Positions 46,587-64,000 of a DNA stretch of 64,000 bases are shown piece by piece. This stretch comes from a virus. The notes under the pieces were generated by a model. It did not search any database. It was given only the letters and a program-made list of their open reading frames with translations, and had not been told where the DNA came from. Each line of letters starts with the position of its first letter. Position 1 is the stretch's first letter. The stretch covers positions 62,001 to 126,000 of the IMG/VR virus record IMGVR_UViG_3300045993_000425; one strand, 5' to 3'. Position numbers and translations under genes: made by a program.

Positions 46587-49500
46587 CTAGCAGCCAGACC
46601 ACAGTTTGTTCATGCCCTCTGACAGGTTGCCGTGGATGTCTCGCAGCTGCCGCAGCCTAGTCATAGGGCATTCAGTACCAACCCCATAAAGTCTAAGCGT
46701 TTTCTCGATGACATTCTCATTCAGGTCGAGTAGCCACTCCCTGAGGTCGATATCGTCCTGACCAGCCAGCTTAGGCATGTAGACAAGCCGGTCCTCTGGG
46801 GCCATCTTCATGAAGTCTAGAGGAGCCCATGCTCGCAGGATGTAAGGCACGAAGCTGCTAGGGTCAGTTCCAGGCGAGTAGTCCGTACCGGCGAAAGCTG
46901 ACCCATGATCGATGAGGGCGATAGCACCGGCTGGCTCGACCAGAATGTTCTGGCCATGAGCATCAGTCTCCCCAATGACCCAGAGGTAGCAGGCTAGCCG
47001 GTGTAGGAGGCCTGACTTCAGGTAGGGGATGAGCACCTCAGAGGCTAGCTGCTCTGCCTGCCTGTTCTGCTCGTCCAAGGGCTTGAATTGCGCCCCTAGC
47101 AGCCTCATGGCGGCGGTTTCGCGCCCATTGATGAGGAGCAGGTCGCAGTGGGGGATCGACTGCCCTAGCCCCATCTCCTTCGCAATATGGTAGGCTGCCG
47201 CTTCCCTGGCCGACTGGCTGGCGGTTTCCTGCCTGACTCCAGCAGCCGGTGAAAGTTTCCCACTGCCTGGCTTGAGGAGCCAGATGCCACCAGACTTAGG
47301 GTCACGAGCAGCTAGAGCCCCCTTGGAGTGCTTGCCGTTGAGGTTGAGAGGCCAGACGAGGCCTTCCTTCGCCGCTCTCCCTACCTCGAGTGCTGTGTCA
47401 CGCGCCTCGAGGACAGCCGGTGTGACAGTCTTGACCCAGTGCTTCTCCTCTTCAGCCTTCCCAAGGTCCCTTCCGCCAAGCTCTAGGACAGCCTCCAGGG
47501 CTCGGAGGTTCTGTTCGTTGTCGGCTAGCTGGACAGCGAAGAGGACAGCCTTCTTCTTGTCTCCAAGCACCCTGTAGGCAATCTGGTACTGGTCATGGTC
47601 GAACGGCCTACCGGCGGCCAGGAAGATAGCTGCACTGACCAAGCGGTCTAGGTCTGGGTCGTGCCCAAGCTGCCTGGAGGCCTGGATGATCTCCCAGGAC
47701 TCAAGCTTACCGGCTTCTGGGTCGAGCCCGAGTAGCTGCTCTGACTTCTTGGTCTTGTTGGGACTAGCAGGAGCCATCTGAAGGCTGTGACGGTCCGGCT
47801 TGCCGGGAGTGCCTTGCTGCACCTTTAGGTCTGGCTGTGTCTCTAGTGAGTCCCACAGAGCGTAAGACTCTGGTGAGTTTGTGGTGTCTGACCATACCGT
47901 CCCGAACCTAGAAGCTAGATGGCGATACAGAGCAGTAGCGACCCCTTGTCGCTGGAACTTGGGATGGACGACTGTATTGAAAATGGTCATTCCGGTTCTA
48001 TTCGAGATACCTCTTAGGGTTGCGATGGTCGGTCGCTCTTCGATGTGAGTTGGCACGTCTGTTGCCGTGACATTGAAGCGGGACCACGGGATATCTCCTT
48101 CGTCCTCTGAGTCTCGATAGTGATGTACCCACCTGCCTTCCCCCAAGGGGTGAGTGTCGATGTAGGTATCAGGGGTTCCTGGGCGAGCGTCTTCGGCCTG
48201 ATACCTAGCCTCATTGTCTGGCCATGAAGGGTACTCTAGTGGCATCTTTCTTAGCCGCTCTGACTTCCGAGTACTATCAGGTGCAGGAGGCAGCTGACCC
48301 GGCAATCTGCGGCGACGAGGGATGGCTCCAGCAGCTGCAATGCCACCAGCAATGCCCAAGCCAACAGCACCCAGACCGAATCCGACCCGGCTGCCGGTTT
48401 GGGCTCCTTCGTAGGTAGACAGGGCGGCCTCTCGCATCTCGGGATCAACCGGCATAGGAGCGTGGTCCCAAGCTCTCTTCTCTGACTCCAGAGTGGCCCC
48501 ACTCAAGGTATTCGCTATAGTCCCCGGTGCAGGAGGGTTGGGGTCTAGGATGTGACCTGCCTCATGGGAGACTGCACTCGGGTGAGCAGTGTCATTGGCA
48601 AAGATGTGCCCCTCGGATGGAATCGAGAAGGGGCTCATCTTTACGGAGGTCTTGAACTTCGCCCAGCGTGCTTCCTCCTTTGGGGTGGTGGGAGCTCGTA
48701 GGTCTGCTGGGGTAGTCAGCTTGATCCCAGGAAGCTTGGAGGCATTGCGGTCGAATATGGCTCGAGTCGGCTCTACTTCATGTGCGTGCCTGGCATTGAC
48801 CTGACTCCAGTGCTTGGCCTGAGTCAAACTGCCAACCCCACTACCCGCCTTGGCTCCCGCTAGCCCACCGGCAGTCGCCATGCCAAGAGCAAGCGCACCT
48901 ATGACTCCATTACGGATAGCTCCCTTCTCAAGAGAGTCGTCGCTCTCGGCAATGGAGTCGATCAACCCGTAAATCCAGGTCAGGTTGACCTCGTCCACCT
49001 TGGCCTTGTCGGCTGTCAGGGATGTCTCGACAGTGACCGTCAGAGGGCAGCCCAGATGCTCGAAGACCCCTTGCGTCGTATTGTCAATATCCTTGCAGAT
49101 GAGCAAGCCGTCTGGGTCTACTGTCCCTTTATTCCCCTCGACATCGTAGAGCTCGACCTTCTGCCCAGCCGCAGCCGGTAGAATCTCGGCAGCCTTCTTA
49201 GCCACCTCTCGGAGCTGGTCATCGAAGACATAGGCATAGGTAGATGGAGGTAGGTCTTTCTTGTCTAGGTCAGAGTCCTGGTGGAGGTCTACCATCGCAT
49301 CCGGCGTAGGGATGGAGATGATGTCCTCATAGAAGGCTTTAGCCTCGTCTGAGGCATCAGGAGCTACTCGGACATCGTCATACCGCCGGTCAGCTACCTC
49401 GAGCACCCATTTCCCTTTGACCCGGTACTCGATCAAGTGGTTGGAAGGCGTCCCATCCTTGATGTTTCTCTTGCCTCGCCCCCAGCCGGTAGGATTGTAG

Positions 49501-49979
49501 AGGGGGTAGATATTCAGACCCACACCCTTCTCCTTGGCGTATTTCAGGATGTCAGGAAGCCTCTCGAGGACTGTCAGGGGGCCAACTTGCTCCTCCCCAT
49601 GTACCCCAGAGATGATCGTCAAGTGCTTCTCACCCTCGGTCACCAGCTTGACGAGGGGTAGACCCTCCACCTCGCCATAGCTATCTGAGCCAGCCACCTT
49701 CTCCCACTCCTTCAGGAAGGCCTTGTAGGGAGTCTTCCAATCCTTGGATGTGAAGACGGAGGGCTCAGGCTGCTCTGCCTTGTGGACAGGCTCCTCATGG
49801 TGATGGTGCGCCTCATGCTGCAAGGTGCGCCTCAAGGCCTTGATGCAGTCAACGTCCTTGGTAGCGATGACTCTGGCGACAGCAGCATCCACCTCCCCCT
49901 TGCTCGAGGAGGGATCGAGGATGACTCTCTCGGCATCGATGAGGATATCGATAGGCTTACTTGTTGTCATGACGTTCAT
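46587..49979 (-). CDS. Polyvalent protein: M14 carboxypeptidase-like, HExxH, GNAT and HipA-like kinase domains
   Basis: 1130 residues. The start ATG at 49979 follows GGGAGG and overlaps the upstream gene. Domain order: (1) residues about 80-350, zinc carboxypeptidase-like, with ISGVHGEEQVGP (His and Glu of HxxE), NIYPLYNPTGWGRGKRN, MVDLHQDSD and VTVETS; (2) a hydrophobic Gly/Ala stretch at about 365-395; (3) AVSHEAGHILDPN (HExxH) at about 470-480; (4) a GNAT-like domain with VVHPKFQRQGVATALYRHLA, about 620-720; (5) C-terminal HipA/PI3K-like kinase, about 860-1100, with GIWLLKPGSG, HxxN in GETDAHGQNILVEP and metal-binding Asp in IALIDHGSAF. Such mixtures are characteristic of phage polyvalent proteins, thought to be delivered into the host. 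Individual activities are inferred from motifs. Confidence 0.75.
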   Translation of the reverse strand: MNVMTTSKPIDILIDAERVILDPSSSKGEVDAAVARVIATKDVDCIKALRRTLQHEAHHHHEEPVHKAEQPEPSVFTSKDWKTPYKAFLKEWEKVAGSDSYGEVEGLPLVKLVTEGEKHLTIISGVHGEEQVGPLTVLERLPDILKYAKEKGVGLNIYPLYNPTGWGRGKRNIKDGTPSNHLIEYRVKGKWVLEVADRRYDDVRVAPDASDEAKAFYEDIISIPTPDAMVDLHQDSDLDKKDLPPSTYAYVFDDQLREVAKKAAEILPAAAGQKVELYDVEGNKGTVDPDGLLICKDIDNTTQGVFEHLGCPLTVTVETSLTADKAKVDEVNLTWIYGLIDSIAESDDSLEKGAIRNGVIGALALGMATAGGLAGAKAGSGVGSLTQAKHWSQVNARHAHEVEPTRAIFDRNASKLPGIKLTTPADLRAPTTPKEEARWAKFKTSVKMSPFSIPSEGHIFANDTAHPSAVSHEAGHILDPNPPAPGTIANTLSGATLESEKRAWDHAPMPVDPEMREAALSTYEGAQTGSRVGFGLGAVGLGIAGGIAAAGAIPRRRRLPGQLPPAPDSTRKSERLRKMPLEYPSWPDNEARYQAEDARPGTPDTYIDTHPLGEGRWVHHYRDSEDEGDIPWSRFNVTATDVPTHIEERPTIATLRGISNRTGMTIFNTVVHPKFQRQGVATALYRHLASRFGTVWSDTTNSPESYALWDSLETQPDLKVQQGTPGKPDRHSLQMAPASPNKTKKSEQLLGLDPEAGKLESWEIIQASRQLGHDPDLDRLVSAAIFLAAGRPFDHDQYQIAYRVLGDKKKAVLFAVQLADNEQNLRALEAVLELGGRDLGKAEEEKHWVKTVTPAVLEARDTALEVGRAAKEGLVWPLNLNGKHSKGALAARDPKSGGIWLLKPGSGKLSPAAGVRQETASQSAREAAAYHIAKEMGLGQSIPHCDLLLINGRETAAMRLLGAQFKPLDEQNRQAEQLASEVLIPYLKSGLLHRLACYLWVIGETDAHGQNILVEPAGAIALIDHGSAFAGTDYSPGTDPSSFVPYILRAWAPLDFMKMAPEDRLVYMPKLAGQDDIDLREWLLDLNENVIEKTLRLYGVGTECPMTRLRQLRDIHGNLSEGMNKLWSGC

Positions 49980-52900
49980 AGTCGAGGCCTCCCATAGGAG
50001 ACTGATAGTAGTATGGGTTCTCGTCCTCTAGGATATGTGTTGGCGCGTCAAGTAGATGGAAATGCATTTCCCGAACCAGCGAATCGAACATACCACCACG
50101 AATCGGAGTCTTTAGGTCAAACCAACCAGAAGAGCCAGTTGTTGGATGTAGGATGTGTGAGAACTTCCTCGCAGCCCAGACATACCTGTGCCTATCAGTA
50201 GAAGCTGGCGGCAGGAGGCCAAATCTCCGATGCAGGAACATCTGGGAGAGGAACTTCAACCTCTCAGAATGAGACAGCTTCTTGCATTGCAGCGCATACC
50301 AGACGACCATGTGGTTTAGCTGCTTGCGCTTCCCTTCCAAGCCTACCACCGTATTGTCGGGCTTGTTGTCACTGTATGTCGGGTCATCGAGTCCCTCAAT
50401 GTGTGCGACTAGAGCCCCGAACCTCTGTACCCAACCAACGTAGGCACAAGCTCGCCTCGCTTGGATGAGCTGTGGCCTCTTGGCTCCCTCTGGCAAGTCA
50501 TCTGGGTATACACCACCAGGGTAGTCATCTTTGTCATATGAGTTTTCAGCATGGAGCAACCCACCTCCATCCCCCCACTTCCAAGGAGTTCTGTCGCTCC
50601 CTAAGATGTGTCTTATGAACTCAGGAGTGTAGTGCTGGGCCAAGATCTCCGTCGTCGCCTCCTCTAGGGCCTTGGCGCTATCTGAGTCGTAGTCGTGATA
50701 TTGGGAGGCACCATGCATGGCTTCGTGCAGGTAGACAGTTACAGCATCATCATAATCCCACAGGTTCGCACCCGAGTCAGCATCCGACAGTACCTTGGCG
50801 AAGTCAGACGCATCCTGGCGACCCATCACGATCTTGCCAGCCCAGGTGTGATGAGCTCTGGCTTCAGGCAGAGGCAATGCCCGGTCAATCGCACCACCTA
50901 AGCGGTTGCCTACAGGATTGCGTGCCCCCACCATAGCAACAACAGCTCCACCCAGCTTGATCAGAGCCGACTGGTTGCGAGTGAAGTCATCAGCCCTGTT
51001 ACCATCCACATCTTCCTGGTCATAGTCCCAGATGGGCTTCCCTTGGATGTGGGTCGTCGGCTTCCAGTCATCCTTCAGGTCAGGAGCATGGCTCCCCCAA
51101 GCCGGTAGAGGGAACTCGATCTCGTGGTTCGGCTTGGAGTCATAGGGCTCACCTGACCAGTACAGCTTGGGCTGTGGAGGCAGAGGAGCAATAGCTGGTG
51201 CAGGGACGACCTCCACCTTGGGCTCAGACTTGGGCGCCTTCTTGCGAGGCTTCTTGGCCTTAGGCGGCTCTGCCTTCTCGAGTGCGCCGATGTTGACCTC
51301 AGAGCAGGGCACAGCCTCCACCCAGTAAGCCCTTCCATCAGGGAGTTTCCCTCGAGGTGGCTGGTCGGTGCGGAAGAAGACCAGCTGGCTGCCTGGGGGC
51401 AGAGCTAATTGGAGCTCCTGGTAGAGAGGGATCGAGGATGGCCAAGCTGTTACGGCTTTCCCTTCCACCACCTCGTCTGTCACCTCTGTCGGGATGAGCC
51501 TGTCAGCTAGATGCTGCGCTGCGGCAACGATAGGCATGATCGTCATCCAGCCTGGCACCTCTCGCTTCCGCTCTGCGATCCACCCATGCAATTGAGACAA
51601 CCAGACGGCCTGCTGGTCATCATCTGAGGATTTACCCAGTTTGTTCCTCTCTGCATGAGCCGCAATCTCGGCAGGGTTACGCCACCAGTGACCTCCACCC
51701 CATCTCTCCTCTACCTGCTGCCTAATGAAACCAGCAGCACCGAATGCCCTCTGGGACCCAATGTTGTTGGTCGCAATAAATGCGCGAGCTGGCTTGTCCC
51801 CAATGTACTGCTTGAGAGCCCTACCCGCATGACCATTGCCTCGAGCGGCTGGAGTGATATAAGTCGCACCAGCTCGAATAACACCATCCTCAGTCCTGGG
51901 TGTGAAGAAACCTACCGGCTTACCAGCGTGGTCCAGAATGGGGTGGCGATAGGCTCCATCCTCTGAGTCAACATGCCCACGCAGCTCTGGGTCATTTGAG
52001 GCCTCATCGATTAGGTGAGCCAGATTTGGTTGCTCCCCCTTCGCCAATCCAGCCGGTAGCGGCTTGATGAGGTGTTTCTCTGACCTGTCCTTCTCATACT
52101 GCAACCGGAACTGAATCGCCTTCTGAATATCCCTGTAAGCCACAGACTTGGCATCAGCCGGTAGGGACTCGTGAAGGAGAGCTATAGGAACCTTCCTGTT
52201 GCTCAAGACGGCCTTCCTGACCTTAGGGCTGGTGTGGTTGGCCAGGAGGGAGATGATCTCAGGGCTCAGGTTCTTCTGTTGAGCCAAGTCCCGTAGCTGA
52301 GACTCGATGTTATTGGAGTTTCTGGGATGATTGAATAGCCGGTATGCGACCGCCTGAAGGCGAGGAGATATCCCGATATTCACCATCCTCCGACTGAGAT
52401 CGTCAGCATTCGTCTGTAAGTCGTCGACACCTACACTAGAGCTTCCAAACCTGTCGAGAGCGGCCTCAATCGCCTCATCACTAAGGCGATGGTTGTGGAG
52501 TAGCATCTCAGTCAAGAGATTCTTTGTGCCGACATGCTGCTGGTGGTTGATCGGGTTCCGACACTTGCTAGCTAGAGACTCCACCGCAGCAGCAGACAGT
52601 GGAGCGTTTGCCACCATCTGATTCCCCATGCCAACGGCTGTTACCGCTTGCTGGGCGCGAAACAGTCGGTCTGCCTGCTGCTCTGTAAGGTTTGGGTTTC
52701 CAGCTAGCCAGTCAATATGATTCAGAGGCTTGCGATTGCTGTGGTTCTTGGTCGCCCAATCTACCATTTCATCTAGGAGTGAACCCGACACCAGATTGGA
52801 TTCAACCAAGGGTTGAGGAGCCTCCTCTGGCTTGATTCTCCTCCATAGCCTTTCCATGTGGGCACTTGTTGCGTTTGGGTGCATGGTCAGGCGTGTGACA

Positions 52901-53919
52901 CCCATGTGGTCATCTGGAGGCACCCGATCGGCAATCAGATTGAGGTCTTCCGATGTCAGAGTTTTTGCTCTAGCTGACTCACTATCTGTTCTGGCCAGAT
53001 CTTCCTTGAACTTATCAAAATGCCTTCGTCTTGATGCAAGGTCGCCCTTTTTCAGGCCCCTCCACCAGCTGCTGCCGTTATTCAGTATCGACCGCCTGAT
53101 GTCCTCTGCTCTCGCCTCATATCTAGTGCCTGAGTTGGACACCAGATACTCATTCTCGTGATTATCGTCACAGTACGAACGGTGGAAGTGCGGATACGCG
53201 AACCAGATGTCTTTCAAGGGCACCCAGGCATGGTGCATATTCGAGCCGAAGCCGGTATCGACTTGGTCAGCGAAGCTCGACAGAGCATGCTCTTGGGTCA
53301 TTAGGTGGGTGTCGAGCCCCCTAGTGAGGGCGACGTGAGTTTCCCCATTGATGAGCCGAGTATTCAGCCCACAGCCCCCAAGGATGTCGTTGTGAAGTTC
53401 CTGCCGGTGGTCAAGCAGGTCCTGCATGAGACGCGGGTTCTTCTGAACCCAGAGGTGAAGCTGCTTACTAGTGAGGTGCTTGGTCCTGCTGTTCGCCTCA
53501 CCTGTCTGGATCAGCTTTAGGAAGTCCCTATCGAGGGTGTGACCCGTCTCTGGGTCATCATAGGCTGCCAGATTGTTGAAGCGATGGACGAAGTACTTGG
53601 CTACGACAGCCGGTGGCTGGTGGGGGCTCGCCTTGTAGGCCCTAAATAGATGCTGGGCGGTAGACTCACCCTTGTCGAGGGCTGTGGCACGCTCCCAAGC
53701 ATCATCATCGACATCAATCGAATCCCACCCACCATTCGTCTTCCTCTTGGTGTTCGGGTCGACAGGGGTTGGGTGACCTGACTCTAGGTGCTGTTGCTTG
53801 AGGTCTGCCCTGGAGGGATGCCTTAGCCACCTCTCCTGGGCGCGATTCTGCCTGACCATCTGGTCTGCATGGTCAAGACCAACGTCTGCATTTTGGCTTG
53901 CGCCTGACTTGTCTGGCAT
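49957..53919 (-). CDS. Polyvalent protein: ART-like, helical repeats, GNAT and zincin domains
   Basis: 1320 residues. Residues about 150-260 look like an R-S-E type ADP-ribosyltransferase: ETHVALTRGLD (Arg), EHALSSFADQV (S-S-F) and HENEYLVSNSG (E-x-E-like). Residues about 300-660 are a run of helical repeats with regular Leu/Asn (VAPxxH-like units such as LSPEIISLLANHTSPKVRKA). Residues about 690-760 form a GNAT-type acetyltransferase (GATYITPAARGNGHAGRALK, QRAFGAAGFIRQ). After a Lys/Pro-rich linker (KAKKPRKKAPKSEPKVE), residues about 1060-1110 hold a zincin: TVYLHEAMHGASQYH followed by ALEEATTEILA, giving HExxH and a downstream Glu. Activities are inferred. The gene overlaps the 46587 gene by 23 bp. 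Confidence 0.7.
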   Translation of the reverse strand: MPDKSGASQNADVGLDHADQMVRQNRAQERWLRHPSRADLKQQHLESGHPTPVDPNTKRKTNGGWDSIDVDDDAWERATALDKGESTAQHLFRAYKASPHQPPAVVAKYFVHRFNNLAAYDDPETGHTLDRDFLKLIQTGEANSRTKHLTSKQLHLWVQKNPRLMQDLLDHRQELHNDILGGCGLNTRLINGETHVALTRGLDTHLMTQEHALSSFADQVDTGFGSNMHHAWVPLKDIWFAYPHFHRSYCDDNHENEYLVSNSGTRYEARAEDIRRSILNNGSSWWRGLKKGDLASRRRHFDKFKEDLARTDSESARAKTLTSEDLNLIADRVPPDDHMGVTRLTMHPNATSAHMERLWRRIKPEEAPQPLVESNLVSGSLLDEMVDWATKNHSNRKPLNHIDWLAGNPNLTEQQADRLFRAQQAVTAVGMGNQMVANAPLSAAAVESLASKCRNPINHQQHVGTKNLLTEMLLHNHRLSDEAIEAALDRFGSSSVGVDDLQTNADDLSRRMVNIGISPRLQAVAYRLFNHPRNSNNIESQLRDLAQQKNLSPEIISLLANHTSPKVRKAVLSNRKVPIALLHESLPADAKSVAYRDIQKAIQFRLQYEKDRSEKHLIKPLPAGLAKGEQPNLAHLIDEASNDPELRGHVDSEDGAYRHPILDHAGKPVGFFTPRTEDGVIRAGATYITPAARGNGHAGRALKQYIGDKPARAFIATNNIGSQRAFGAAGFIRQQVEERWGGGHWWRNPAEIAAHAERNKLGKSSDDDQQAVWLSQLHGWIAERKREVPGWMTIMPIVAAAQHLADRLIPTEVTDEVVEGKAVTAWPSSIPLYQELQLALPPGSQLVFFRTDQPPRGKLPDGRAYWVEAVPCSEVNIGALEKAEPPKAKKPRKKAPKSEPKVEVVPAPAIAPLPPQPKLYWSGEPYDSKPNHEIEFPLPAWGSHAPDLKDDWKPTTHIQGKPIWDYDQEDVDGNRADDFTRNQSALIKLGGAVVAMVGARNPVGNRLGGAIDRALPLPEARAHHTWAGKIVMGRQDASDFAKVLSDADSGANLWDYDDAVTVYLHEAMHGASQYHDYDSDSAKALEEATTEILAQHYTPEFIRHILGSDRTPWKWGDGGGLLHAENSYDKDDYPGGVYPDDLPEGAKRPQLIQARRACAYVGWVQRFGALVAHIEGLDDPTYSDNKPDNTVVGLEGKRKQLNHMVVWYALQCKKLSHSERLKFLSQMFLHRRFGLLPPASTDRHRYVWAARKFSHILHPTTGSSGWFDLKTPIRGGMFDSLVREMHFHLLDAPTHILEDENPYYYQSPMGGLDYERHDNK

Positions 53920-53949
53920 CAGAGGCTAGATTGCGGCTGATCGAAGGTG

Positions 53950-54213: not shown

Positions 54214-57200
54214 CTTTGGCTCTAGGAGAAAGTGGAGAAACCGCTTGATTTGCTTGGTGATTCTCAATCCTATCAAAACCCATCAGCTTGATGGCAACGT
54301 CGTCCTGGTGGGCTAGGTTGCTCATGATCTCAGCCGGTACACCGCTGCTGCAATCGACCCACCGCCACTCCTCGACCTCATTGTCGGGGTCATTCGCAGA
54401 AGTGGGCTCCCCATCAGAGACGCCGAAGAAGATCGAGACAGGAACCTCTCCCTTAGGCCCACCATTCGCCTGCCCGACCTCTCTGAGGGTCTTCACCTCT
54501 AGGCCAGCCTCTTCCATCAACTCCCTCTTGGCTGCGTCCAGTGCCTGCTCTCCTGCCTCTACATGGCCACCAGGGAAGGTCCAGCCTCCAGCCTGTCGCC
54601 TTCCGAAGAGGATACGCCCATCCCAGTGCTCGATGATGCAGGTAACGGCAGAGGTCATGGAGGGAGACAACTCACCCTTGCCTAGACTAGGCTTCATTGG
54701 CATGGGCTTCATTGGCATGGGCTCCCTAGACCTGATCCCGATGTCGGAAGGTCGCAAGTCCCCAGGAACGTATCCATTGCGCTCTGGATAGGGGGTAGGG
54801 GCAGGGACAGCCGGTAGATATCTAGTGTCACCAGCTAGGTGATTGGTGGTGTTCCTCGCGACCCTGACTGGAACCTCCTTCAGTCCAGCAATTCCAGCTG
54901 CGATCAAGCGGTGATGACCCTCTCCCAAGGTCAAGGTCTTCTCTCGCTGGTGATAGGTCAGCATCAGAGGCTCCCTGATGCCGTTCGTCTTGATGTCATC
55001 AGCCAGTGCCCTGTTCTGGGCTGCATCGTTCCGGCGATCTACCTGAATGTACTTCAGAACTTCGTCAATAGGAACCAGTTCAGTATGGTCAGACCAGTTA
55101 CGTTTCATCGTGCTGTGGGCCTCCTCAGTGAACCGTCCACTCGCGTCTCGCCACTCTGGAGGCTCCTGCGAGCTCGCCTTCCTGATGTCATTGGTCATGA
55201 CAGTATCTATAACACGTTTGTCCATCTTTGGACTAGGGCCAAATGAGTCTATTTCAGAGGAGGACTTGCCGAGGCCATACTTGTACGGCTTCCCATATTC
55301 AGGGTGGTCTGGGTTGCCCTGGTCATACCCCTCCAGCTCGTGGTCCCTCGTGACAGAGACATGAGTCCTGGCAGCAGGGCCTGAGTGATAACTTCCGAGG
55401 ACAGTATGGCATCCGAAGTGGTTTCTAGCATGGGCGTTGAAAGCTTCCACCATCAGCTTCCCAAACCCCTTCTTCTTCATGTCCTCGTCCCGAATCTCCT
55501 GGTAGTCGATCCGAGCCGTCTTAGGTGCATCCCAATCAATCCGGCCATCTAGGACGCCTAGCCGGTTGCCTGAGGGGTACAGGAGAGCGACGGACTGCAT
55601 TCGTGGCTCAAGTAGAGGCTCCCCAGCAGGCCATCCATCCTGCCTCTCTCTGACCTCTCTCGTCGTGAGCTTGTCAGACCAATGTCGGACGTGCAGCTTG
55701 AAGCCCTTATCCTGGTACTCCTTCGGGAGGCGGAAGCTGTAGTCATGGCTCGTCACTACCGGCTCATCCGCTTTGGGTGCCCCAGGAGGAACCGGGATGG
55801 TAGACAAGGCCATCTTCTCGAGGTCCTCGCCCTTGCCCAGACCGTACCTGTAGGGCCCGAAGCGATTGTCGAAGCTTGACTCATTGGAATTGTGCTGGAT
55901 ACCATTCCTCTCGGGTTTCAGGTCCCTGGCCCGATAGGGTAGTTCATGCACCCTGGCCATCTTGTTGTGGACCCTGTTCGCATCAGTCGAGTGGTACTCA
56001 CCTTGGACCGTATGGCAGCCGTGGTGGTTGCGGACATGGGCGAGGAAGGTTTCGTACATCAGACTACCCAGCCCCCTCCCCTTCAGGTTGTTGTCTATTA
56101 GATCGGTATAGTCAATCTCAGCCACATTGGGAGCAGACAGATGTGCCTGCCCAGACACCTCGCCAACCTTGTTGTTGCCTTTGTCCAGCAAGTTCGCGTT
56201 GATGTGGTACACTCTAGGTCCATTCCCGATTGGTCCCTTACTGGAAGCAGGGGTGTTATTCACCACCAGCCGGTATCCAAGCCTTTGATACTCCTCAGGA
56301 AGCCTCTTGGTGTAGTCATGCTGGATAGCTCCCCTAGCCTGCTGGAATGGGGTCAGAACTGGGTTACTTACTAGTGGACCCACGGGAATGGTAGACAGGG
56401 CCATCTTGGTGAGGCTAGCTGGCAGCTCTGACTTGAGCTCCATCTCATGCGGCCCAAACATCCCATCGAATGCCGTATCGCCCTTCTTCCTTCTAGCCAT
56501 CTCAGAGGGGGTAGGGTGTGGATTCAGGACTGGCTTGTAGTCCAGCCCCTGCTGCCTGGCTACGCTTGCTCTCGCCCTCGAGGCTGCTGTGCTGTGGACA
56601 CCCGAGACATCCGTTGTGCAGCCATGGTGATTCTTGGCATGGGCCATAATAGCCGTATACATCGAACTGCCCATGCCTTGACCCTGGAAGCCGTTGTCGA
56701 GGTCCGAGAGCCCGATGTTGAGAGAGCCCTGCTGGTAATTCATAGGCTGCTTGCTATTTTGGTGCTCATGCAGGCGACCAACTACCTGCCCGAGGACGTT
56801 GTTCTCCTTGTCGTACATGGTAGCCGAGATGTCGCCAGCCTCAGGGAAACCTCTCTTGTATGTTTTGGCTGACTCGACTATTAGCTGGTGCCCTGCCTTC
56901 TGGTGCTCAGGCTTCAGAAGGTGGGAGTAGTCGAACGCTTGAGTGCCATCACTGCCAGCTGTTCCAGTAGGCTTTCCGAGGGCAATGTTGGCTAGGGCCA
57001 TCTTCTCGAGGTCTTCCGAGTCGGACTTCTTTACTGGAGGAAGAGGACGCCCATTGATTGCAGACCTCACCTGCTGGTCATGGTCGAATGGGCGGTATGT
57101 GATGTGAGTCTGAAGCTCGTCGGCACCATGGTCTTCAGGGTCTGCCAAGTGATCGTATTCTCTACTCAAAGCTTGGATCTCGCCTGGATCTTTCCCGAGT

Positions 57201-58039
57201 AGGTTTGGAGCAGCCTCGGTCACACCCTGGAAGATGTCTCTGTGGATAATACCATCATAGCCAAGTCGCTTGCCTACAACTGGCGTCCTGGGGGCATCCA
57301 CGAAGGCGAAGGTGTCAGCCCTGATGTTGTCAGCATGCTTGAAAGCTGACTTCGTATCTGTCTCCATGTCCTTGAAGTCATCCCTTGCCTGCATGAGAGG
57401 GGTGGACATGTGCATGAAACCAGACTGATCTTCGTAGGGAACCTTGTTCCAGGGGTCCATCCCTGCATTGACCTTGAAGCTAGACTCTCCATCCATATTC
57501 ATATCTTTGACATGACGTTTGGATAGGTAATTCAATACCTTGACCGCTTCTTCGTGTGTCATCCCATTCGGCTTACCATATTTCATCGCTCTCAGGTAGT
57601 GACCAAATGACATTTGAGGACCATGCTTAGTCAGGTCTAGTGGGTTCTTGAGCACCATATGGACAGGGAACACATTGGCTCCCTCTCCAAACTTGCTGCC
57701 GCCCTTGTAGGAAGGTCCTGGGGTTCCCGAGTAGATGCTGCCGATGTCGGACGAGTCTGTGTATGAACGAGTCGAAAGAGCACCATGCGGGTTGCCAGCT
57801 CGCCTAGTGCCCCGATACAGGACGATAGGCTTACCTTTACTGTCAACCAGCCTGGAGCCAGCGAACCAAGAAGGGTCGGGTTCGACAGCCTTCATAAGCT
57901 CACCCGCACTTACAACATACTCAGACCTCTTATGCAGCCGGAAACGCCCATTGGCGCTCTTTTCGGGAGAAGCCGGTACATCGGGCTCATCCGACCCCTT
58001 CGTCGCTTGGTGAGCCGCCTTCCTCGCTTTAATCTTCAT
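54203..58039 (-). CDS. Polyvalent protein: ART, three GNAT-like repeats, ParB-like and Nudix domains
   Basis: 1278 residues from the ATG at 58039, overlapping the upstream stop by 11 bp. (1) An ADP-ribosyltransferase-like domain of the polyvalent ART type, about 60-350: KPIVLYRGTRRAGNP, SDIGSIYSGTPGPSYKGG, VFPVHMVLKNPLDLTKHG. (2) Three tandem GNAT-like copies centred near nt 56650, 56040 and 55440, each with [FKL]-x-G-x-G-[MLF]-G-x-[SL]-M-[YV]-x-A-[IF] followed by H-A/V-[KR]-N-H-x-G-C-x-T; each is preceded by a linker of the LEKMALSTIPVG type. (3) ParB/sulfiredoxin-like, VPIDEVLKYIQVDRRND with TLGEGHHRLIAAG. (4) Nudix hydrolase with a complete box near nt 54495-54572 (G-x5-E-x7-REL-x-EE-x-G) . 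Activities inferred; likely virion-delivered effectors. Confidence 0.75.
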   Translation of the reverse strand: MKIKARKAAHQATKGSDEPDVPASPEKSANGRFRLHKRSEYVVSAGELMKAVEPDPSWFAGSRLVDSKGKPIVLYRGTRRAGNPHGALSTRSYTDSSDIGSIYSGTPGPSYKGGSKFGEGANVFPVHMVLKNPLDLTKHGPQMSFGHYLRAMKYGKPNGMTHEEAVKVLNYLSKRHVKDMNMDGESSFKVNAGMDPWNKVPYEDQSGFMHMSTPLMQARDDFKDMETDTKSAFKHADNIRADTFAFVDAPRTPVVGKRLGYDGIIHRDIFQGVTEAAPNLLGKDPGEIQALSREYDHLADPEDHGADELQTHITYRPFDHDQQVRSAINGRPLPPVKKSDSEDLEKMALANIALGKPTGTAGSDGTQAFDYSHLLKPEHQKAGHQLIVESAKTYKRGFPEAGDISATMYDKENNVLGQVVGRLHEHQNSKQPMNYQQGSLNIGLSDLDNGFQGQGMGSSMYTAIMAHAKNHHGCTTDVSGVHSTAASRARASVARQQGLDYKPVLNPHPTPSEMARRKKGDTAFDGMFGPHEMELKSELPASLTKMALSTIPVGPLVSNPVLTPFQQARGAIQHDYTKRLPEEYQRLGYRLVVNNTPASSKGPIGNGPRVYHINANLLDKGNNKVGEVSGQAHLSAPNVAEIDYTDLIDNNLKGRGLGSLMYETFLAHVRNHHGCHTVQGEYHSTDANRVHNKMARVHELPYRARDLKPERNGIQHNSNESSFDNRFGPYRYGLGKGEDLEKMALSTIPVPPGAPKADEPVVTSHDYSFRLPKEYQDKGFKLHVRHWSDKLTTREVRERQDGWPAGEPLLEPRMQSVALLYPSGNRLGVLDGRIDWDAPKTARIDYQEIRDEDMKKKGFGKLMVEAFNAHARNHFGCHTVLGSYHSGPAARTHVSVTRDHELEGYDQGNPDHPEYGKPYKYGLGKSSSEIDSFGPSPKMDKRVIDTVMTNDIRKASSQEPPEWRDASGRFTEEAHSTMKRNWSDHTELVPIDEVLKYIQVDRRNDAAQNRALADDIKTNGIREPLMLTYHQREKTLTLGEGHHRLIAAGIAGLKEVPVRVARNTTNHLAGDTRYLPAVPAPTPYPERNGYVPGDLRPSDIGIRSREPMPMKPMPMKPSLGKGELSPSMTSAVTCIIEHWDGRILFGRRQAGGWTFPGGHVEAGEQALDAAKRELMEEAGLEVKTLREVGQANGGPKGEVPVSIFFGVSDGEPTSANDPDNEVEEWRWVDCSSGVPAEIMSNLAHQDDVAIKLMGFDRIENHQANQAVSPLSPRAKDAT

Positions 58040-61000
58040 TGGCTTTCCTGACCTTGCCTCGCCACATCTTCCTGCCCTTCCAGGGACCGTCCTGGGTAGG
58101 GAACTCCCCGTACTTGGCCTCCTTGAAGCCCCAGAGGCGTCGAGGAAGCTCATCATAGGAGAAGCGGAAGTGAACCGGCAGTGGGTCCTTTGGGTCTAGA
58201 CCAGAGATTGGAACTTTGAACTCAGGATGCGGCCAGTGGATGTCCCCATAAAACTCTCGGTTGCGGAGGTGCTGTAGGAAAGCCTCAGAGATGAGCTCAT
58301 TAGGGTGCGTGCCACCGTAAAGAATCTCCTGGATACGCTTGAGCTGTTCTGGAGGGTATTGATTGTTGTAGTCATTCCTGAGGGCCTTTTCATGCTGCTC
58401 CCTATCTCGCTCCACGTTCTCTCGAGGTTGCCTCTCTTCGTACTCCCTCTCGCGATTGATGAGACTCTCCCTTACATTCGCAATATCTTCCTCTGTCCAG
58501 GGGTGATGGGTGTGCTCATTGGCTACATCGTACTTGTTGCCCTTCTCGTCAACGTAAACAACGTATCCCTCACGGTCATTGTACTCATGCACTCCCTCAA
58601 GCATCTTGGGGCTAAACCTCCTCCCATTCGAGATGACGGGCTGGCAGTTACCCACCTTCAAGCCTGACTCCATCAGATGGGCCATCCTCAAATCTGCCTT
58701 CTTGGCGTAGTCAGCTTCTGGGTCGTCTGGGAGGATGGTATCATCAGGGAACATATTCAATGCCCTCTGCTTGGCCTTTGACTCCATCCTCTTCGTCCAT
58801 TCATGCCCGAGGTCGCTCTGCACCTCGTCTACATGGATGGGCTTGTGCTCCTGCTTGTCCTCATCCCACTCGCCACCCGTAAACCTGACCCAGCCTGCCG
58901 TCTTCGGAGAGCCCACAGGGTTGACAGGGTGCCCGCTATTGTACCGGGAGTTGAATAACCCCTGGAATAGCTCCATGAGCCCTTCCTTCTTCAGTTGGAC
59001 CATCCGCTCCATAGGGAAGTCCAGCCGGAAGACGTTGCTCTCCTGGGCTGAGTGCTGCTGGGTAGGGAGGAGGTCATCAGGCAATACCTCACCCTTGACC
59101 TTCCTCATACCATTGCAGCTAGGACAGGTAACCGATGTCTCCTCCTCGAACTCACCCTTTCCATCGCAGATGTGACAAGGTCCCTTGAGTCCAGCAGGTA
59201 GGGCTACACCGGTCTGAGCACACATCAGGCAACGATTGACCCTTGGCTCCTCATTGAAGCAGCGTCGACATACCTTCGCCTCCGAGCTGCCGGTTCCTAC
59301 GCAGGCGTGGCAGTCAGCTTCCCCAGCACTCCCGGTCCCATGACAGGTTTCACAGTCTTTAGGCAGAGTACTGACGTGCTCTAGGGCTGAATCGAGGTCT
59401 GGCCTGTTTCCACGCTTTGTACCATTGCACTCACTGCAAGGGACCATCACCGTGGTAGGAACGTGACCCTTCCCGTGGCAATGCTGGCACCACTTCATGT
59501 AGTCAGACTCACCCTTGCCCCAGTGCCCCTTCGAGAACCGCCAGGTTTCCTCTGGCTGCTTGTCGATCTCGGCTTGGATGGACTCTACCGACACATGGCC
59601 TGGATTCCTGCTGTCTCTAGGCCAGTTCCCTGGAGGCATCTCCTTGTGATGGACCGATGTCTTCCCCTGCTCGAGGATGTGGTCCCTAGCTGCCCTGAGC
59701 TTGTTGGTACGCAGTCTGAAGGTGATGTTCTCGTCCTCTTCCTCACCGAAAGGCTGGGTCCAGCTCTCGTCCTTCTCTGTCTTCCTCACCTGCCCTGCCC
59801 ACATCTTCACCCTGCCCCAAGGCCCATCCTGAGTCGGTAGATCACCGTAATGCGCCTCCTTGAAGCCCCAGAGCCGCTTAGGGAGCTCGTCGTAGGAGAA
59901 GCGGAAATGTACCGGCGGCTCATCCTCTGGACGCCCCAGAGAGATGGGTGCCTTGAACTCTGGGTGCGGCCAGTGGATATCCCCTGTATAGCCCTGGTTC
60001 CTGAAATGCTGTAGGAATGCCTCGGCAATAAGCTCGTTAGGGTGGGTTTGACCAAACAGAATCTGGTTGACTCTCTCCAGCTTCTCGGGTGGGAACTCCT
60101 TGTCGAACTGAGCCTGTAGACCAGCAGCGTGCTTGGCTCGCATCTCCTCGATGACAGCCTTGGGCTTCCTCTTGTCATTGATCATCATGCTGGTGACGAC
60201 CTGAGACTCGAGGCTGGCGATGTCCTCCTTGGTCCAGGGATGGTGGGTGGTTGCATCTGGAACTGAAGTTACCGTGCCATCAGGATGACTAAAGCGAGTG
60301 TCTCCATAGAAGGCCTTGATCGTTTCGATCCCATCCTTCATTTTAGGATAGAATGCCATCGAACCACCGACCCTACCTCCGTCCACATACAGTGGCTTGA
60401 ACGTGCCTTCTAGCGACTGTTGGGTCCGCATAAGAGCATCCCTGACTGCCTCCTCTGCGAACTTGGCATACTCAGCCTTGACATCATCAGGCAAGATCAT
60501 CTCGTTTGGGTATTCCTCGATGGCCTTAGCTCTAGCCTCTGAGCCTGCCTTCTTCGTCCAGCTCTGACCATAGTCGGACTGCACCTCGTCTACATGGATA
60601 GGCTGTCTCTCACCATTCGCACTCACCTTATTGCCACCCGTGAAGCGAACCCACCCAAGCGTAGGCGCAGCACTATTCTCGCTTACAGGATGCCCTGCAC
60701 CCAGAGAGGCCTTGTACATATTGCCGAAGAACTCCTCCAGCCCCTCGTCTCGCAGCTGCTGGAGGTGCCTGTCATGCAGGTCGAGCCGGAAAACGTTGCT
60801 CTCCTGGGCTGAGTGCTGCTGGGTAGGGAGGAGGTCGTCCTTGTTTGGGGTTCCTCCTGTGATCATCCCGCTGCCCTCGCAGTCAACGCAGGTTTCGTTG
60901 ATAGGCTCTAGCGTGCCATCACCGTGGCAATGATGACAGTAGTTTATATAGTTGCCAGGGATGTTGACACCGGTTCCCGCACATGCTTCGCAGTCGTCGA

Positions 61001-64000
61001 CCCTGTCTGCTGCATTGCGGCACTCTCTGCACCTGTCCAGGCCACTAAAGCACTGCCCCATGCAATAATCGCAGTCGTCACCGCTGACCTTGACTACACC
61101 CTTTTCTTTGCACTCACCACAACCCTCTCCCCCTCCCTCACAGTCAGGGCACTCCTTGTGCTCATTGCCATCGCCACCACAGAACTCACAGTCCCCACAC
61201 TTCTGGCCGATATCGGTGATGTACTCGCGAGCCAGTGCTAGTGTTAGGCCTGTCCTACCAGTCCCATCACATTTCTTGCACTTAGGCACGATTCTGTCGG
61301 TGATCCCATCACCACCACAAGTGTCACAGACTTGATGACCGAGGCCATCTTCCGCCTCCCCATAGTACCCCTTGGAGAAGTTCCAGACATGCGAGGGCTG
61401 CTTGTCGATTTCAGCCTGAAGGTGCTCTGCCGAACAGTGTGAGGGATTCTTGGGGTCCCGTGGCCAGTTCCCAGGAGGCATCTGCTTGTAGTGGATCGAG
61501 GGCTTACCCGTAGCCAAGATTTGGTCCCGGCCGAGGCGCAGCTTGTTGGTCCTGAGCTTGAAGCTGATCTCGCCCTCATTCGGGTTTGAAGGGTCACTGC
61601 CTTCAGTCCAGCTCGCATCCGTCTCTGTCTTCTCGAGGTTCTTGTGCAATTGGTTATCCAGCTGCTGGCTCCCATAGCGGAATAGCTGGTCGCTGAAGTC
61701 TCTATGCACCTGAGGGTCCACCATCCAGCTCTTGATTGCCTGGTTCTCGTCCCTGTCAGCGTCAGTCTTGGCTTCCAGGTTCCGACCCAGCTCAGAGTCC
61801 TGGTAGAGGGCGAGGTTGTAGGCATTGACGTGACTGATGATGTCCTTGTGCCGGTCTAGCCAGTTGAGGGTCCTACCATATGTCTCTTGGTTCTCCCCAG
61901 GTAGCCCCACCATGATGTTCGGGATGAGGCTGACACCAGCCTGCCTGAGCTTCCCTGCCGCCTCCTCGAGTAGCTTCTCTGAGGCTGGCTTCTTGTGAGC
62001 CCTCAGGATTGGGTCATTGAAGGTTTCTACCCCTAGCTCGACGTGCCTGATGCCAGCAGCCTTCAGGAAGTCAGGAGTCATGTTCTTCATGGCAGCTGCT
62101 GTCGTCTGGATTACGAACCCCTTGAAGTTAGGGTTCTTCTCCTTGATCTTCTGGTAGATCTGAGGGAGCAGCTTATGGTTGTCAGCTTGGCCGAACGTCT
62201 TGTCATTGAGGTAAATCAGCTTTGTTGGCAGGTGCTTAGAGATGGACTCCACCTGCTGCATGACCTCATCGGTGCTCTTCTCCTCTACCTTCTTGGGGAC
62301 GCAGCAGAATGTGCATTGGTGCCTGCATCCATCCGATAGGGTCAGCCTGGGGATAGTCGGAGTCCCTTGGAAGTGTCTGTAGTCATGGCCAGGATTGTAG
62401 GGAAGTCCGAACTCCTCTACGAAGCTCCGCATGTCAGGATGCACCTTGACATTGTTGAGCCCAGCGAAGTGGCTCATGTCGGTGTAGCCCCCTACCGCGA
62501 TCTTCTGGGTAGGGACAGCCTGGGCTAGCTGCTTGATGAAATCCTTGTTGACATCCAACGCACTGAAGGCGACATGAGAATACCCAGCGTCCTTGATCAT
62601 CCTGGCTGCTTCCTCTGGGTTTCGGACTGTCAGATGGTCTGCATTCGGGACACTATGGGCCAGATGCGCTTGCCATTGGGGGATTTCCCAGAAATCCTGA
62701 GGTCTATCATAGCCTTCCCTGTTTGCGTACAGCTTGTCATAGTAGGCATCTGAGTCATCCCTCTGACGGTTCCCTTGTAGGAGGTCAGATGAGAACTGCA
62801 CCATCAGGACTCGATTGGAGTTGCTACCAGATGGATGCTGCCGTACCCACAGGTTCTGGTCTTGGGTAGGTGATTTGAAGCCCTGCGGCGGCTTTGGCTT
62901 CGCTTGGCTTGCCTGCTGGTATGTCTGGTGGGGACTCGTGTGCTTCGAGCCAGGGACCTCTCCTCCTGCCTCCTGGTGGGCTTCCTTGGGCTGTACCCTT
63001 CCAGTAGGTGTACCTAGCGTGACGAGCCCCTTGCTGAGACGCTCAGGCTCAGGTTCTGCCCATCCGTCCCTATGAGGGCTCTGGTTCAGGTGGCTAGAGA
63101 GGACAGCCTTGACTGCCTCCTCGAGCCCTTCCCTTGTGTCCTGTAGGTTTACCTTGAAGCCTCCACCGCTACCTTCGACACTACCTACCAGCCGTCCACC
63201 CTTGCTGACACTAGCGATGTGGTTGGAGTTGATAGCGAGCTTGTACCCTTCAGCCTCAAGCTGGTGAGGAAGCTGGTGGATGTGCGAAGTGACTACACCC
63301 TCGTTCTTCGCTAGCCTTACCCGATATGGACCATACCTGCCATCGTAGTCGCTGATAGCTCTCGGATTGATCCACTCTGAGAAGTCATTGTAGGAGCCAT
63401 CTACTGAGTTGCTCCCATAGTTAGGCTTGGCGGTGTAGACGAGGTTGTGCTTGTCTGCTAGACGCTCCCTGGTTCTGTGGGCAGAGGTCGAATGCACATC
63501 TCCTACCTCCTCCTTGACCCCGAGGTGCCTGACAGCATGCGTCATTGCAGCCTCGTATAGAGCCGTTCCTAGCCTATTCTCTTTGCTCCTGTGGTTCGCC
63601 TTGACGCAGACATCAATCGTCTTGAGGACCGGCTTGCCATTCTCCATCTTGATTTCGCCATCCCACATACCTACAGGGACAGAATGGTCCAATGGCTTGA
63701 CATGAGCTACCAGGCTCTTCAGTTGGGGCTTGTACCTAATGAGTAGCTGGTACTTGGATCTGGCAGGAATGGGTAGGTGCTCGGAGTAGTCATAGACATG
63801 CTCTCCGGTAGGATACTGCCTGACCAGCTTACCCTCTGGTAGTTCCTCAATTGCCTTCTGTAGCCTTGGTGAGACTGCTTCTCCGTCCTTCTCTCCCTCC
63901 TCGGCGGCTTCCTCGTTGCTCCTTACGTTGTCAATGATAGATTTTGCGTACTTCGATGGTCTATCCCAGCCAGTTAGTGGACCCTCTGCGACACCCTTGC
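58029..64000 (-). CDS. Giant polyvalent protein (5' end outside window): GNAT-like, radical SAM, duplicated zinc-finger/HVDEVQSD modules
   Basis: Open to the window edge: the frame continues beyond the TTG at 63692 through residues such as GEHVYDYSEHLPIPA to 64000, so at least 1990 residues and no true start is visible. Domains from the visible N-terminus: a GNAT-like copy related to those in the 54203 gene (LGTALYEAAMTHAVRHLG); a radical SAM domain with a preceding B12-binding-like region, cluster motif CRHQCTFCCVP near nt 62296-62331 (CxxxCxxC) and IMVGLPGEN; then two copies of a roughly 560-residue module. Each module has RTNKLR...MPPGNWPRD, up to eight DnaJ-type CxxCxGxG knuckles, QQHSAQESNVFRLD and a PIHVDEVQSDxG motif, ending HFRFSYDELP-[KR]-RLWGFKEA. 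Roles are inferred from motifs only. Confidence 0.75.
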   Translation of the reverse strand, partial: KGVAEGPLTGWDRPSKYAKSIIDNVRSNEEAAEEGEKDGEAVSPRLQKAIEELPEGKLVRQYPTGEHVYDYSEHLPIPARSKYQLLIRYKPQLKSLVAHVKPLDHSVPVGMWDGEIKMENGKPVLKTIDVCVKANHRSKENRLGTALYEAAMTHAVRHLGVKEEVGDVHSTSAHRTRERLADKHNLVYTAKPNYGSNSVDGSYNDFSEWINPRAISDYDGRYGPYRVRLAKNEGVVTSHIHQLPHQLEAEGYKLAINSNHIASVSKGGRLVGSVEGSGGGFKVNLQDTREGLEEAVKAVLSSHLNQSPHRDGWAEPEPERLSKGLVTLGTPTGRVQPKEAHQEAGGEVPGSKHTSPHQTYQQASQAKPKPPQGFKSPTQDQNLWVRQHPSGSNSNRVLMVQFSSDLLQGNRQRDDSDAYYDKLYANREGYDRPQDFWEIPQWQAHLAHSVPNADHLTVRNPEEAARMIKDAGYSHVAFSALDVNKDFIKQLAQAVPTQKIAVGGYTDMSHFAGLNNVKVHPDMRSFVEEFGLPYNPGHDYRHFQGTPTIPRLTLSDGCRHQCTFCCVPKKVEEKSTDEVMQQVESISKHLPTKLIYLNDKTFGQADNHKLLPQIYQKIKEKNPNFKGFVIQTTAAAMKNMTPDFLKAAGIRHVELGVETFNDPILRAHKKPASEKLLEEAAGKLRQAGVSLIPNIMVGLPGENQETYGRTLNWLDRHKDIISHVNAYNLALYQDSELGRNLEAKTDADRDENQAIKSWMVDPQVHRDFSDQLFRYGSQQLDNQLHKNLEKTETDASWTEGSDPSNPNEGEISFKLRTNKLRLGRDQILATGKPSIHYKQMPPGNWPRDPKNPSHCSAEHLQAEIDKQPSHVWNFSKGYYGEAEDGLGHQVCDTCGGDGITDRIVPKCKKCDGTGRTGLTLALAREYITDIGQKCGDCEFCGGDGNEHKECPDCEGGGEGCGECKEKGVVKVSGDDCDYCMGQCFSGLDRCRECRNAADRVDDCEACAGTGVNIPGNYINYCHHCHGDGTLEPINETCVDCEGSGMITGGTPNKDDLLPTQQHSAQESNVFRLDLHDRHLQQLRDEGLEEFFGNMYKASLGAGHPVSENSAAPTLGWVRFTGGNKVSANGERQPIHVDEVQSDYGQSWTKKAGSEARAKAIEEYPNEMILPDDVKAEYAKFAEEAVRDALMRTQQSLEGTFKPLYVDGGRVGGSMAFYPKMKDGIETIKAFYGDTRFSHPDGTVTSVPDATTHHPWTKEDIASLESQVVTSMMINDKRKPKAVIEEMRAKHAAGLQAQFDKEFPPEKLERVNQILFGQTHPNELIAEAFLQHFRNQGYTGDIHWPHPEFKAPISLGRPEDEPPVHFRFSYDELPKRLWGFKEAHYGDLPTQDGPWGRVKMWAGQVRKTEKDESWTQPFGEEEDENITFRLRTNKLRAARDHILEQGKTSVHHKEMPPGNWPRDSRNPGHVSVESIQAEIDKQPEETWRFSKGHWGKGESDYMKWCQHCHGKGHVPTTVMVPCSECNGTKRGNRPDLDSALEHVSTLPKDCETCHGTGSAGEADCHACVGTGSSEAKVCRRCFNEEPRVNRCLMCAQTGVALPAGLKGPCHICDGKGEFEEETSVTCPSCNGMRKVKGEVLPDDLLPTQQHSAQESNVFRLDFPMERMVQLKKEGLMELFQGLFNSRYNSGHPVNPVGSPKTAGWVRFTGGEWDEDKQEHKPIHVDEVQSDLGHEWTKRMESKAKQRALNMFPDDTILPDDPEADYAKKADLRMAHLMESGLKVGNCQPVISNGRRFSPKMLEGVHEYNDREGYVVYVDEKGNKYDVANEHTHHPWTEEDIANVRESLINREREYEERQPRENVERDREQHEKALRNDYNNQYPPEQLKRIQEILYGGTHPNELISEAFLQHLRNREFYGDIHWPHPEFKVPISGLDPKDPLPVHFRFSYDELPRRLWGFKEAKYGEFPTQDGPWKGRKMWRGKVRKANED
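58040..61560 (-). repeat. Internal duplication of about 1.75 kb inside the giant gene
   Basis: Module A (about 59790-61560) and module B (about 58040-59720) encode the same order of motifs. DNA identity is locally complete: the segment around 60795-60838 is repeated at 59030-59073 without change through at least 40 bp, whereas the zinc-finger regions have diverged strongly. Confidence 0.75.

Follow-up and report, generated by a model that had tools for sequence, protein, structure and literature searches.

Giant multi-enzyme proteins of a phage related to Myxococcus phage Mx1 share a linker peptide with head proteins and may be head-maturation polyproteins

The window analyzed here covers 64,000 nucleotides, from base 62001 to base 126000 of a virus record 166,843 bases long (IMGVR_UViG_3300045993_000425), the genome of a 167-kb phage. 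The nearest isolated phage found was Myxococcus phage Mx1, with a capsid identity of 54%, to which the phage of the window is distantly related. Four adjacent giant genes, designated here A to D, lie on the minus strand, on the same strand as the major capsid gene (PHROG 752, 6e-39) and downstream of it, and the portal, large terminase and Mx1-type protease genes are located upstream of the capsid gene, on the side away from the giants. In Mx1 the protease gene is followed by a scaffold-like gene, the capsid gene, a neck-like gene, the Nudix giant and the kinase, an order shared by the window phage, and in both phages the giants are placed in the head module, past the capsid and neck genes. 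The ORF calls agreed with the sizes given in the initial annotation (1130, 1320 and 1278 aa, the third being 1317 aa as a full ORF) and extended the fourth protein to its complete 2797 aa. The genes and their modules are as follows:

46587..49979, minus strand: giant A, 1130 aa, M14-like, HExxH, GNAT-like and HipA/PI3K-like kinase (ORF, profiles, motifs)
46590..47447, minus strand: A, HipA/PI3K-like kinase with DxHxxN and IDHG (Mx1 kinase match, 9e-58)
47745..48257, minus strand: A, GNAT-like region (Pfam Acetyltransf_1 0.0076, below cut-off)
48552..48566, minus strand: A, HEAGH, HExxH at residue 472 (motif only)
48930..49757, minus strand: A, M14-like region, about aa 75-350 (NCBIfam NF052223; borders approximate, by eye)
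49957..53919, minus strand: giant B, 1320 aa, N-terminal region, GNAT-like motif and C-terminal zincin-like block (ORF, motifs, match in the relative L108)
50182..51180, minus strand: B, zincin-like block with HEAMH at 50713-50727, HExxH at residue 1065 (conserved in L108)
54203..58156, minus strand: giant C, 1317-aa ORF (1278 aa from an inner ATG), ART-like, three GNAT, ParB and Nudix (ORF, Pfam, PHROGs, Mx1 alignment)
54347..54652, minus strand: C, Nudix with a complete Nudix box (Pfam 1.9e-19)
54848..55033, minus strand: C, ParB-like (PHROG 6218, 3.8e-9; Pfam 0.024, below cut-off)
57047..57919, minus strand: C, ART-PolyVal-like region (alignment to an Mx1 protein with PF18760; borders approximate)
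58029..64000, minus strand: giant D, last 1989 of 2797 aa, the gene running past the window edge (ORF and reading outside the window)
58032..59774, minus strand: D, third copy of the DnaJ-zinc/'DEVQSD' module (repeat comparison)
59781..61628, minus strand: D, second copy of the same module (repeat comparison)
61629..62981, minus strand: D, Rossmann and radical SAM module with CxxxCxxC (Pfam 2.8e-18; 12-sequence alignment; model pLDDT 82)

The presence of several unrelated enzyme domains in single phage chains supports the initial annotation of the giants as polyvalent proteins, and the modules named at that time (M14-like, zincin-like, GNAT, ART-like, ParB, Nudix, HipA/PI3K-like kinase, radical SAM and DnaJ-zinc) were recovered through profile matches, Mx1 alignments and motifs. 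Our analysis adds more GNAT modules and, in D, a module weakly resembling YunG together with the three zinc/'DEVQSD' copies. Checking against Pfam profiles supported the radical SAM, DnaJ zinc and Nudix modules and GNAT in C, but left ParB in C, HipA_C in A (0.046) and GNAT in A below the cut-offs.

In giant A, residues 116-179 matched the NCBIfam N-acetyl-ornithine deacetylase model NF052223 (8.7e-6, 25 bits, the cut-off of the model being far higher, at 400), and a second HExxH-type motif, HEAHH, is found at residue 55 inside a His-rich stretch. The DxHxxN and D(H/N)G catalytic motifs are typical of HipA/PI3K-like kinases, and both are present in the A kinase, which is 38% identical to the Mx1 'kinase'; this homologue scored as a PI3/4-kinase at 2.9e-8. 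Giant B had no Pfam or PHROG match and no match at E 1e-3 among 50,697 phage records. Its zincin-like block recurs in L108 (32% identity over 356 aa, 9e-39), and the motif suggests that the HExxH blocks of both A and B are zincins. No relatives were confirmed by scans made with B, with the kinase alignments A2 and A4 or with the D module, perhaps owing to poor peptide patterns.

Giant C has GNAT matches over three stretches (Pfam, 3.7e-9). The Pfam scan gave no direct ART match in C, and its ART-like region was recognized by alignment (3e-5) with the part of an Mx1 protein that scores as ART-PolyVal at 2.8e-16. PolyVal-type domains were found as ART-PolyVal in this Mx1 homologue, L072 and L108 and as PBECR5 in L103 and L097, and for C itself through the Mx1 alignment only. 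The Mx1 'NUDIX hydrolase' was matched by both C and D. Giant D consists, in order, of a weak ParB-like N terminus, module 1, a weakly YunG-like part, a GNAT-like part, radical SAM and modules 2 and 3. The repeated module combines DnaJ-like CxxC pairs (Pfam DnaJ zinc domain, 2.8e-13) with a DEVQSD-containing part; identity to module 1 is 44% for module 2 and 46% for module 3, and the corresponding stretch of the relative L103 appears by eye to have no zinc pairs. A model of the C-terminal part of this module from a 5-sequence alignment (pLDDT 72.6, pTM 0.53) gave a best Foldseek E of 0.14 and a best VIA-align Z of 4.9, with many weak GNAT chains near Z 4.

The radical SAM module carries CxxxCxxC, matches Pfam PF04055 and is 45-59% identical to our copy across the 11 other aligned sequences. 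Its AlphaFold2 model (pLDDT 82.0, pTM 0.83) matches Rossmann/radical SAM enzymes, with AprD4 first (Z 20.2, rmsd 3.7, 358 residues aligned) and MgmA, CysS, MiaB, RimO and TsrM after it. AprD4, MgmA, CysS, MiaB and TsrM share with the predicted structure the Rossmann and radical SAM fold and CxxxCxxC; however, identity to AprD4 and the other radical SAM enzymes is 10-16% (best 15 rows), and the phage module is embedded in giant chains. The modeled N-terminal Rossmann fold is that of the cobalamin-binding radical SAM subclass. The conserved cobalamin-ligand motif of this subclass is DxHxxG, which some members lack, and it is not among the invariant columns of the 12-sequence alignment. By sequence comparison, the module is a conserved family carried in giant phage proteins: among 40 viral loci, 30 copies are in ORFs of at least 1514 aa (six of which run off the end of the locus, some loci being near-identical), 8 are in ORFs of 392-549 aa and 2 are cut by contig ends. 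The stand-alone 392-549-aa versions are those of L117, L126, L127, L128, L131, L132, L133 and L134. Two of the nine records behind the radical SAM loci, those of L108 and L109, belong to the same capsid family, and seven had no match, although the records may be fragments. Neighboring modules in six radical SAM giants of other phages were GNAT, histidine phosphatase, HATPase or DUF7178. A tblastn search of the Mx1 record matched neither the radical SAM module nor the zinc/DEVQSD module, and a word search for 'radical SAM' found no occurrence in the main text of the polyvalent-protein survey (PMC5512222) or in the jumbo-phage survey (PMC7824862).

The block had been considered unusual, which has to be qualified: a similar pool of modules is found in relatives (L108, L109 and others), radical SAM also occurs in giant ORFs of other phages, and the implied uniqueness was not upheld. 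The capsid proteins of L108 and L109 are 62% and 66% identical to our own. In L108, radical SAM, Nudix and the zincin block are joined in a single chain; L109 has one chain with radical SAM and Nudix and another with a B-like part and the A kinase. Since the same modules are joined differently among relatives, a fixed covalent order is not needed.

Tripeptides of the form K[STAG]E seemed to fall between the domains of the giants. The pattern [LIMV]xK[STAG]E, hereafter the delimiter, was then fixed from the scaffold-like genes that directly precede the capsid gene of relatives (52 distinct genes among 76 loci). These 52 genes contain K[STAG]E 343 times, usually with L, M or I two residues before, and 278 of the occurrences fit the full pattern; reordered versions of the same residue classes occur 2-15 times, and D replaces E 32 times. 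The delimiters in the giants, all found by pattern match, are as follows:

47451..47465, minus strand: LGKAE (A 839)
49773..49787, minus strand: VHKAE (A 65)
51268..51282, minus strand: LEKAE (B 880)
52033..52047, minus strand: LAKGE (B 625)
53665..53679, minus strand: LDKGE (B 81)
54671..54685, minus strand: LGKGE (C 1158), before Nudix
55826..55840, minus strand: LGKGE (C 773)
59775..59789, minus strand: VRKTE (D 2212), between modules 2 and 3
61623..61637, minus strand: LEKTE (D 1596), between radical SAM and module 2
Outside the window, minus strand: two further D delimiters (128, 701)

Shuffling within 40-aa windows, which keeps the local composition, served as a control. Of the 22 delimiters of our genome, the giants carry 11, four named head genes carry 4 and other genes carry 7, against shuffle means of 1.6, 0.9 and 7.4. 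None of 1000 shuffles reached the 11 sites found in the 6,564 aa of the giants, the 7 sites outside the giants and the four head genes are spread over 41,316 aa, and the density in the giants is about tenfold above that of the rest of the genome. Counts of reordered motifs in the giants are 0-2. Because three of the 11 sites begin copies of the repeated module of D, about nine are independent, and because K[STAG]E was first noticed in these same giants, the own-genome count is not a fully independent test. In Mx1, 18 of 26 matches lie in the head module including the giants (5 in the giants against a shuffle mean of 0.64, 13 in other head-module ORFs against 1.9, and 8 in the rest against 8.3); here the pattern came from the scaffolds of other genomes, the Mx1 head proteins having been seen by eye before it was fixed.

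The position of the delimiter was analyzed in 23 giants (our four, two of L108, three of L109, two of Mx1 and 12 of further relatives), defined as ORFs of roughly at least 630 aa with such modules, using homology blocks of at least 60 aa from all-against-all BLASTP. Of 62 sites, 82% are within 20 aa of a block edge, as against 44% (sd 6) for random positions, with 0 of 1000 randomizations as high; the median distance is 5 aa for sites and 26 aa for random positions. The control patterns E[STAG]K (44%, 41 sites) and [LIMV]x[DE][STAG]E (41%, 22 sites) were at the random level, whereas looser controls were partly edge-biased: [LIMV]xK[STAG] followed by another residue (58%, 110 sites), K[STAG]E lacking a hydrophobic residue at its usual place (61%, 33 sites) and [LIMV]xE[STAG]K (80%, 5 sites). 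Some 58% of the sites also lie at least 25 aa inside some longer block, as compared with 72% of random positions. The same arrangement recurs at individual modules: Nudix starts at 1169 in giant C, 1961 in L108 and 1386 in L109, with sites at 1158, 1950 and 1377, and the zincin block of L108 starts at 2263, with a site at 2252. Among the L108 giants, one reaches 9 delimiters against 0.68 expected, and L109 has 3; other radical SAM giants have 0-4 each. The idea that the delimiter is generic to radical SAM giants was rejected, as 15 loci outside the capsid lineage showed no excess over shuffles. A 'QFQ' peptide in giants of other phages (L009 4790-15070 and L010 6362-16429; 5 and 4 copies against about 0.25 expected) is possibly the delimiter of another lineage and stands as a weak lead.

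Counts across the family were made on the non-redundant ORFs of the 76 capsid loci, called mechanically and sorted by best match to our own or Mx1 proteins. The excess is mainly in the scaffold, two unnamed head-region proteins, the protease/kinase (90 found, 15.8 expected), the giants (Nudix type 31 and 4.6, kinase type 9 and 1.7) and the portal (29 and 5.4), and at least one site is present in 16/28 Nudix-type, 7/8 kinase-type, 43/56 protease-type and 21/35 portal ORFs. The large terminase (2 and 3.3), neck (0 and 2.4) and tail completion (0 and 1.1) proteins are flat, and unclassified ORFs of at least 150 aa are mildly enriched (80 against 44.6, 1.8-fold). The minus-strand ORFs did not hold as a negative control, being enriched too (113 against 25.9), several lineages having protease-type genes there. 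Twelve of the 28 Nudix-type ORFs, some of them truncated, have no delimiter, including the L031 giant, complete at 1344 aa, and the L097 giant, truncated and 1413 aa long; with only these two cases, one truncated, a co-variation of motif use between scaffold and giants was not upheld. The capsid protein is normally a main substrate of the head protease. In 55 major capsid proteins, the delimiter is at chance level (4 matches, 3.8 expected), and they have an ALQxE arm instead, so one protease would need two types of site.

A phage-encoded protease, by sequence a head maturation protease, lies in the head module. It is 1590 aa long, and its N-terminal 500 aa or so are 33% identical to the Mx1 protein annotated as 'putative prohead protease' (WNM70322). 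Of the 16 members aligned, 11 match PHROG 1028 'head maturation protease' in the protease domain (best 3.1e-6, our own 0.0028), and His48 and Ser128 are invariant. The domain had no Pfam, NCBIfam or PDB sequence match, and its identification as a confirmed assemblin or gp21 relative was dropped for want of Pfam and PDB support. In the protease homologues, sites peak 0-40 aa past the catalytic domain: a delimiter follows within 60 aa in 25 of the 46 anchored homologues (of 52), against a shuffle mean of 1.9 and maximum of 6, in 15/46 the same place is taken by a copy of the N-terminal arm of the capsid protein, with ALQxE at its end, and either element is found in 36/46. The sites of the giants resemble those of the scaffold and of the protease itself. 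The protease is fused to a C-terminal PI3K/HipA-like kinase (L021:946-5718, L023:8251-11970), and in the window phage an LSKGE delimiter stands just before this kinase.

Other features of the phage may be recorded here. Intein-like insertions were seen in a ThyX-like and a tail-completion-like gene as well as in the protease and, twice, in the portal, at window 24478-26049 and 14868-16916 and at L021:946-5718 and L022:1-3984; Pfam supports those of the portal only, the others having been recognized by eye. The head genes include a small heat-shock-like protein (L020:10588-10917, by eye) and, at genome 134843-135631, a homologue-like neighbor of the Mx1 'nucleotide cyclase' (by position and eye) with a KKSE site near its C terminus. 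A phage tmRNA at window 23871-24210, plus strand (Rfam 87.9 bits, gathering 47; tag peptide VNSVSTRGA by ARAGORN), adjoins a tRNA-Tyr gene.

Several known systems offer a framework for these observations. The head proteases T4 gp21 and SPN3US gp245 cut behind short motifs whose last residue is Glu and undergo processing on their own C-terminal side, and the T4 scaffold gp22 is cut into several fragments (PMC9026906, PMC10052503). On this basis, the sites following the catalytic domain in our protease family may be read as cleavage sites, and since the same short repeat fills the scaffold protein of relatives, the head protease may cut the giants as well. We therefore consider it probable that the giants are head-maturation polyproteins of an Mx1-related tailed phage, cut by the head protease, packaged and probably ejected. 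They would be made together with the head proteins and enter the prohead alongside the scaffold, their packaging being suggested indirectly by their position in the head module and the delimiter common to scaffold, portal and head protease of relatives. There, the phage's own protease, itself bearing a C-terminal kinase module, would cut the [LIMV]xK[STAG]E linkers and leave single-module enzymes in the mature head: a kinase, an ART, acetyltransferases, a Nudix hydrolase, zinc peptidases and a radical SAM enzyme. These enzymes would probably be ejected with the DNA and may, at an early stage of infection, modify proteins, RNA or nucleotides of the host. The gene order, module content, shared delimiter, its place at module edges and the shuffling of modules between chains are features of the sequences themselves, upon which the timing, the cleavage with its exact bond, the packaging, the ejection and the host targets are predicted, as is the disarming or reprogramming of the host proposed in the initial annotation.

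The peptide could, alternatively, serve in docking or encapsulation by tethering cargo to the scaffold or shell, the giants being packaged and ejected uncut in the manner of the N4 virion RNA polymerase, which is packaged unprocessed (PMC5512222). A short motif situated in linkers and missing from the capsid protein would suit such a role. However, a site right after the protease catalytic domain and many copies in the scaffold are what is expected of peptides cut by a protease, the T4 and SPN3US head proteases cut after Glu, and the modules move between chains; a docking function is accordingly rather unlikely in our opinion.

The giants might also be processed not by the head protease but by the zincin-like peptidases that A and B contain, following the proposal made for P1 DdrB. 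Both proteins have HExxH motifs, and autoprocessing by such domains was put forward by Iyer et al. (PMC5512222), but C and D have sites and no HExxH, and both Mx1 giants carry sites, one having an HEELH of unclear meaning and the other no HExxH. The linker motif is, moreover, common to the scaffold, portal and head protease of relatives, and we judge such processing improbable. Finally, the giants may be ordinary polyvalent proteins in which the motif reflects a favored linker composition and repeat copying and has no function. The linkers look rich in K, S, E and A by eye, some sites are repeat copies and related looser motifs are also somewhat edge-biased; nevertheless, shuffles that keep the composition of 40-aa windows give 1.6 sites where 11 are found, reordered motifs are nearly absent from the giants, and neither the edge test nor the site position in the protease fits, which makes a functionless motif very improbable.

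The polyprotein reading may be set beside what has been described for related systems. The polyvalent proteins of Iyer et al. (2017; PMC5512222) resemble the giants as chains with zincin, ART, GNAT, ParB and nuclease modules, for which delivery with DNA and processing by embedded peptidases were both proposed. The giants add a lineage-wide linker peptide common to scaffold, portal and head protease and a radical SAM module, and neither 'radical SAM' nor 'HipA' occurs in the main text of that survey. Assemblin-like domains are placed there at C termini, whereas here the protease domain is N-terminal in a separate protease-kinase chain. Mx1 has homologous modules in WNM70333 (NUDIX) and WNM70334 (kinase), at the same post-capsid place and with the same delimiter, but in two giants rather than four. 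The T4 internal proteins (Alt, IPs) and the SPN3US ejection proteins offer a parallel in head-internal enzymes, such as the ADP-ribosyltransferase Alt, and in a head protease that cuts after Glu; virion-retained proteins of these phages mostly lose terminal propeptides, whereas in the giants several inner sites per chain would free separate enzymes. The literature on phage radical SAM, polyvalent proteins, prohead proteases and polyproteins, covered in part through titles and abstract openings with most subscription papers missing, did not contain the present claim.

As a tentative generalization, less secure than an even chance, giants in this family, and perhaps in tailed phages generally, may be polyproteins with lineage-specific delimiters for their own head protease, which would release separate effectors in the capsid, so that cassettes of effectors could be acquired, lost or rearranged, the radical SAM enzyme being one virion-borne effector. 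The Mx1 announcement (PMC10720576) reports no proteomics; Mx1 grows on the laboratory strain M. xanthus DK1050 (PMC10720576), so the delimiter claim is testable by virion proteomics. If true, it would offer an answer to the question of how multi-enzyme polyvalent proteins could be accommodated and set free by phages. The delimiter may serve as a sequence marker in the search for head-packaged effectors in uncultured phages, and our analysis draws attention to a family of phage radical SAM modules borne by giant proteins.
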